Positions 89-102 of a stretch of 11,505 nt of DNA are shown here, one piece after another. Each line of letters opens with the position of its first letter. Positions within the stretch are counted from its first letter, which is position 1. The notes beneath the pieces are model-generated. The model made no database searches. It was given only the letters and a program-made list of their open reading frames with translations, and had not been told where the DNA came from. The DNA comes from Candidatus Lithacetigena glycinireducens. GTDB taxonomy: Bacteria > Coprothermobacterota > HKB111. Location: the NCBI GenBank assembly GCA_018725485.1, contig QLUP01000021.1:1-11505 (forward strand), written 5' to 3'. A program made the translations under genes and the position numbers.

Positions 89-102
<14 letters not shown>

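Follow-up and report, generated by a model that had tools for sequence, protein, structure and literature searches.

The open reading frame of tadA, which encodes the tRNA adenosine(34) deaminase, ends inside the tRNA gene that follows it in the window (the whole 11,505-nt stretch of DNA analysed): the UGA stop codon is formed by nucleotides 12-14 of tRNA-Ser(CGA). Overlaps of the same kind occur in many phyla, and we think it probable that tadA here is a message embedded between tRNAs, whose coding life ends when RNase P cuts the transcript for tRNA maturation. The features concerned are these:

11..102, minus strand: tRNA-Ser(CGA), with its CCA encoded at 13..11 (ARAGORN; Rfam RF00005, 60.8 bits)
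89..91, minus strand: tadA stop UGA, which is tRNA nt 12-14, within GGCUGAG (direct sequence reading)
89..102, minus strand: tadA/tRNA-Ser(CGA) overlap of 14 nt, which is tRNA nt 1-14 (direct sequence reading)
89..550, minus strand: tadA, tRNA adenosine(34) deaminase, 153 aa, ending FFSNLRRGG* (ORF; profile and structure matches)
551..557, minus strand: 7-nt spacer between tRNA-Arg(ACG) and the tadA ATG (sequence, ...GGCGCACCA tattaat ATG)
558..634, minus strand: tRNA-Arg(ACG), with its CCA 7 nt upstream of the tadA ATG (ARAGORN, Rfam, sequence)
654..746, minus strand: tRNA-Ser(GGA), the first tRNA of the block (ARAGORN, Rfam)

The bases shared by the two genes comprise two of the three bases of an AGG codon, then AGA GGT GGC and the UGA, and correspond to the acceptor 5' strand and the start of the D-arm. 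Read on the minus strand, positions 103..89 are A|GG AGA GGT GGC TGA, where the bar marks the tRNA 5' end; with the upstream codons included, the 3' end of tadA is AAT CTA A|GG AGA GGT GGC TGA, and G1 of tRNA-Ser(CGA) falls on the second position of the AGG codon. Rfam RF00005 (102..14) agrees with ARAGORN (102..11) on the tRNA 5' end. The sequence-only reading had placed the last four tadA codons and the TGA inside tRNA-Ser(CGA), and this geometry is exact by ARAGORN, Rfam and the ORF reading; it had also stated that no in-frame stop precedes the one embedded in the tRNA, and there is indeed none in the intact 153-aa ORF. The stop thus read lies within an intact tRNA gene on the same strand; overlaps of the selB-selC kind have their ORF stop within or beyond such a tRNA. 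Since TGA also terminates three other genes of the window, UGA is a normal stop here, and a reassigned UGA is ruled out.

The protein carries the HAE and PCxxC zinc motifs (TAHAELIAL and TLEPCPMC); its best NCBIfam match is NF008113 TadA at 146.3 bits, just short of the curated cut-off (150), and its structure matches are E. coli TadA 1z3a (E 8e-36) and TadA 2b3j (E 1e-30), so that similarity and zinc motifs together identify it as a tRNA adenosine-34 deaminase. The tRNA-Ser(CGA) is a class II cloverleaf with a long variable arm, a CGA anticodon and a CCA end, and folding of the tadA-tRNA transcript yields its acceptor, variable and T arms (z -1.3). On the minus strand the block runs tRNA-Ser(GGA), tRNA-Arg(ACG), tadA, tRNA-Ser(CGA), and with a 7-nt spacer at its 5' end and an overlap at its 3' end the tadA message is therefore bounded by tRNAs on both sides. 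tRNA-Arg(ACG) is the tRNA edited by TadA in characterised bacteria, and this upstream tRNA is the one that has A34; the overlapped tRNA-Ser(CGA) does not. The spacer ahead of the tadA ATG (551..557) holds no Shine-Dalgarno-like sequence, and processing of tRNA-Arg(ACG) would leave the tadA message almost leaderless.

The genome is a MAG from the Coprothermobacter phylum, 83% complete, and the window is the start of its contig. The contig edge at which the window begins is only 10 nt beyond the tRNA, and the first 77 nt of the window recur exactly at the end of a second contig, so that one could suspect an assembly error, or a sporadic stop loss in one species; we consider either highly improbable. 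The only other species of the genus compared (G001) has the identical tadA/tRNA-Ser(CGA) junction in an independent MAG (86% protein identity), which rules out an assembly artefact. Of the 62 differences between the two tadA genes, 39 fall at third codon positions, indicating that the frame is under protein selection, and the shared junction and these third-position differences argue that the overlap is more than chance or assembly error. The TadA tail, moreover, is not lengthened, and the same register is found throughout another phylum (that of G021, below). The sequence-only reading had itself raised the case in which relatives normally end tadA before the tRNA and this is a sporadic stop loss, which is mostly not what we find: the congener shares the overlap and other phyla repeat it, although in the sister family, the Coprothermobacter family, tadA stops 23-70 nt before a different tRNA, tRNA-Ser(GGA). 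In the third family of the phylum no tRNA lies near tadA. Given the spacer in the one family and the missing tRNA in the other, the overlap marks the genus of the window within its phylum, of which G002, presumed Coprothermobacter proteolyticus DSM 5265 (PMC4022818), is also a member.

The end shared with the other contig, positions 1-77 of the window and of contig C15 (L140:1-77), lies inside tRNA-Ser(CGA) and represents an assembly fork. C15 runs on past the tRNA and has a metallophosphoesterase-like ORF there, whereas an apparent transposase gene stands behind tRNA-Ser(CGA) in the congener, so what follows the tRNA varies; a direct repeat of the tRNA 3' end, the mark of an integration site, was sought in C15 and none was found.

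The position of the stop is best understood from the TadA tail. The conserved part of TadA ends at FFxxxR, and the tail of the window's TadA, 24 nt after FF including the stop, is of ordinary length when set against families without a nearby tRNA (15-75 nt, median 30), which rules out an extension of TadA by stop loss. Loci whose tRNA begins 7-11 nt behind FF cannot fit a stop after the Arg, and all of them overlap; for a tRNA that begins 19-25 nt behind FF, the natural tail lengths of TadA would give an overlap in 69-84% of families. The first G or GG of the tRNA completes an Arg codon in several lineages, and long tails are confined to other lineages, those with stops at nt 47-57. Because the tail is ordinary and the loci at 7-11 nt always overlap, we conclude that the tRNA moved into the natural tail of TadA and that TadA was not extended.

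We sampled 118 tadA loci, about one from each bacterial family. At 53 of them a tRNA follows on the same strand within 300 nt, and in every case this is a tRNA-Ser (42 CGA, 10 GGA, 1 GCT); tRNA-Arg(ACG) is found close upstream of tadA at 23 loci of the same sample. The two genes overlap at 11 of the 53 neighbour loci, with tadA stops ending at tRNA nt 14, 22, 23, 25, 47, 48 and 57, these positions being corrected for ARAGORN tRNA starts that are sometimes one base early; G018, presumed Desulfurobacterium thermolithotrophum (PMC3368423), has its stop at nt 25. Beyond the family sample, overlaps are present in Pelotomaculum (stop at nt 48) and in an uncultured Clostridia bacterium (nt 10). Mapped onto the TadA tree, overlaps take 10 changes against a mean of 10.1 for shuffled labels, and so are scattered no differently from shuffled labels, on a tree that is poorly resolved and whose starred branches force only 3 changes. 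With stops in all three frames and 10 changes on this poorly resolved tree, a single ancestral overlap is unlikely; given the scatter, the minimal account is repeated packing that was sometimes locked in for long. Judged from these comparisons, the overlap had several origins, spanning all three frames, and was kept within clades, in one case phylum-wide.

The spacings between tadA and the tRNA form a continuous spread from -57 to beyond +140 nt, families readily lose the overlap, and most families with the same gene order lack it. This pattern also fits tight packing into the variable TadA tail, and the packing could be neutral and without consequence: deletion bias would have pushed the tRNA into a dispensable tail, while separate tRNA transcripts or late processing would spare tadA expression. 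The continuous spacings and the scatter on the tree are as such an account would have them, as is the match of gaps and tail lengths to the natural TadA tail distribution, and we regard it as a possibility, albeit one that we lean against in view of the observations noted as they arise below.

Within clades the overlap is kept, and it is lost in some relatives, the behaviour seen in selB-selC. In the clade of G027, which is probably Thermus, the stop is at tRNA nt 22 in all 19 sampled species, from two genera, while spacers of 3-167 nt separate tadA from the tRNA in other genera of that phylum. All five species of the G029 family have a 57-nt overlap, and the end of their TadA is translated tRNA, GEVAEWTKAGDSKSPDPF or nearly so. 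The Desulfurobacterium family, with one gene order, shows gaps of -25, -25, -25, +1, +4, +4 and +7. In the phylum of G021 the register of the window (stop at nt 14, tail usually RRGG) is found in 26 loci of 5 families and only three adjacent tadA/tRNA pairs are separated.

Two side observations were made in these clades. In the genus of G027 (loci L171-L188, e.g. L172:1477-3012, minus strand) TadA forms the C-terminal portion of a 511-aa protein in which it is fused to a TilS-type PP-loop domain; in L172 the fusion matches Pfam ATP_bind_3 (E 2e-45) and has the deaminase domain, and its end overlaps tRNA-Ser(CGA). In one family of the G021 phylum, several near-complete genomes (G140, G142, G146, G149, G151 and G162) gave no TadA match at the thresholds used, which may mean that the gene has been lost or has diverged strongly in them.

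The G021 phylum also provides a natural test of the tRNA UGA as a stop. Two of its members, from one genus, have lost the UGA because tRNA position 12 is C rather than U; in one (L242) tadA stops at nt 22 in another frame, and in the other (L215) its stop is a TAG that takes its G from tRNA nt 1. Members that use the UGA at nt 12-14 have spacers after FF of 7, 10, 19 or 31 nt, all in a single frame, which counts against packing without consequence. That members lacking the UGA end tadA elsewhere is the pattern expected of a working stop, and together with the single frame of its users these few independent events suggest that translation truly terminates at the tRNA UGA.

A comparison with other genes likewise speaks against packing without consequence. 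In a control set of about 53 ORF-tRNA neighbours from three complete genomes (presumed D. thermolithotrophum, G111 and presumed C. proteolyticus), a set that is small and was partly judged by eye, none of the roughly 51 cellular genes overlaps its tRNA, i.e. other cellular genes of these genomes do not pack into tRNAs as tadA does. Fisher's test of the 11 of 53 tadA loci against these controls gives p = 0.0006 for cellular genes only and 0.015 when two transposase copies are counted, relatedness being ignored in both. The overlaps with tRNA-Thr and tRNA-Asn in presumed D. thermolithotrophum were rejected as cellular cases, since by eye they are a single transposase gene present twice; in G111 the overlapping high-GC ORFs look spurious. 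The two transposase-like copies (L263 and L272) end inside tRNA-Thr and tRNA-Asn, which suggests an insertion sequence that lands directly upstream of tRNAs.

That a cut by RNase P at the 5' end of the tRNA must deprive the tadA message of its stop, as the earlier reading claimed, follows from the geometry. The further proposal that a transcript yields either a tadA message or a tRNA is too strict, because translation can come first and processing after; cleavage would then close the life of the message and not decide its fate at the outset. A separate promoter between the two genes had been named as an observation that would tell against the proposal, and a consensus scan of the same strand shows no promoter-like site between tadA and tRNA-Ser(CGA), which is weak evidence but again disfavours neutral packing with separate tRNA transcripts. 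The genome of the window has a tmRNA.

We propose that loss of a spacer brought tRNA-Ser(CGA) into the variable TadA tail, where, as seen in the sequence, an Arg codon closely following the conserved FF is completed by GG of the tRNA, and the stop is the UGA of the D-arm. Ribosomes trailing the polymerase would finish TadA before the 3' half of the tRNA is made, and a ribosome at the UGA would cover the acceptor strand and D-arm, making translation and tRNA folding mutually exclusive at any moment. Once ribosomes have cleared, the tRNA would fold and RNase P would cut at its 5' end, so that the stop and the four codons before it are lost, and a later ribosome would run off the cut tadA message and be rescued by tmRNA. 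On this proposal tadA would be a limited-use message with tRNA maturation as its end of life, i.e. "message first, tRNA last", the overlap being tolerated because little TadA would be needed and its tail can vary. Several points weigh against an embedded message: a tRNA promoter inside tadA could escape the consensus scan, TadA might tolerate tagging or slow rescue so that the consequence is negligible, and an overlap that is scattered as shuffled labels would be and is easily lost looks dispensable.

The overlap could also be a selected control, in which removal of the message by RNase P holds TadA at a low level compared with tRNA-Arg(ACG) and limits off-target editing of mRNA, and an RNase P busy with other precursors allows more TadA. 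Its recurrence in unrelated lineages and its phylum-wide persistence point this way, and the same kind of model has been put forward for selB-selC (PMC8124441); yet selection is unneeded where the overlap is unavoidable (7-11 nt behind FF) or expected in most families (69-84% at 19-25 nt), and most families with the same gene order do without it, so that we find selected control on the whole doubtful. A functional reason for keeping TadA low is plausible, and for this organism it is a lead only. Unlikely, in our estimation, is the broader claim that tRNA maturation is a widespread selected limiter of TadA, with tadA bounded in many phyla by its substrate tRNA-Arg(ACG) and by a tRNA-Ser whose D-arm doubles as the stop; were it true, each transcript would give few TadA molecules and then be converted to tRNA, and TadA would be proportional to tRNA output, with off-target mRNA editing kept low.

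The nearest precedent for an embedded tadA message is selB-selC, where tRNA-Sec is nested in or overlaps the 3' end of selB, and for which an RNase P/nonstop-mRNA model was proposed without experiment (Mukai 2021, PMC8124441). In both pairs the gene for a tRNA-handling protein runs into the same-strand tRNA behind it, so that the tail residues are translated tRNA, and stop positions are conserved within clades and lost in some (PMC8124441). SelB, however, binds the tRNA that it overlaps, whereas the known substrate of TadA is the upstream tRNA-Arg(ACG) and not the overlapped tRNA-Ser; the tadA overlap, unlike that of selB-selC, stops short of the tRNA 3' end, involves core genes and is present in many phyla.

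The block also resembles the tRNA punctuation of animal mitochondria, in which RNase P and RNase Z cut flanking tRNAs and the tRNA 5' end sets the end of the message, and nonstop mRNAs are known from human mitochondria (PMC9674279). The tadA message, too, is bounded by tRNAs with few or no extra bases, 7 nt on its 5' side and an overlap on its 3' side. In mitochondria, mRNAs that lack an encoded stop acquire it through polyadenylation, whereas cutting of tadA would remove an encoded stop, and A residues added to its cut end (...AAU CUA A) would give Lys codons and no stop. Bacterial tRNA-mRNA polycistrons such as secG-leuU and the metY operon are processed by RNase P or RNase E; one transcript is split there by tRNA processing, as proposed here, but their ORF ends before the tRNA and the stop survives. 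In E. coli, arfA output depends on tmRNA rescue of a nonstop message made by an RNase III cut at a hairpin, which is like the proposed fate of tadA in that a nuclease makes the stop-less message and differs in that the proposed nuclease is RNase P, at a tRNA.

Searches of open-access papers for tRNA-ORF overlaps turned up no account of one between tadA and tRNA-Ser. After selB-selC, this would be the second case in bacteria of a core tRNA-related gene having bases in common with a tRNA, and a far more widespread one, with repeated origins and persistence across a whole phylum. The question of whether tRNA processing sets the lifetime of a coding message becomes testable in culturable species, e.g. 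Desulfurobacterium thermolithotrophum. More generally, annotation pipelines that bar CDS-tRNA overlap could truncate or omit such tadA genes.

Elsewhere in the window, a 277-aa ORF at 1116-1949, adjoining ftsZ, has no Pfam or NCBIfam match, and a SepF-family gene (Pfam E 2e-15) lies at 790-1146, between ftsZ and the tRNA block.
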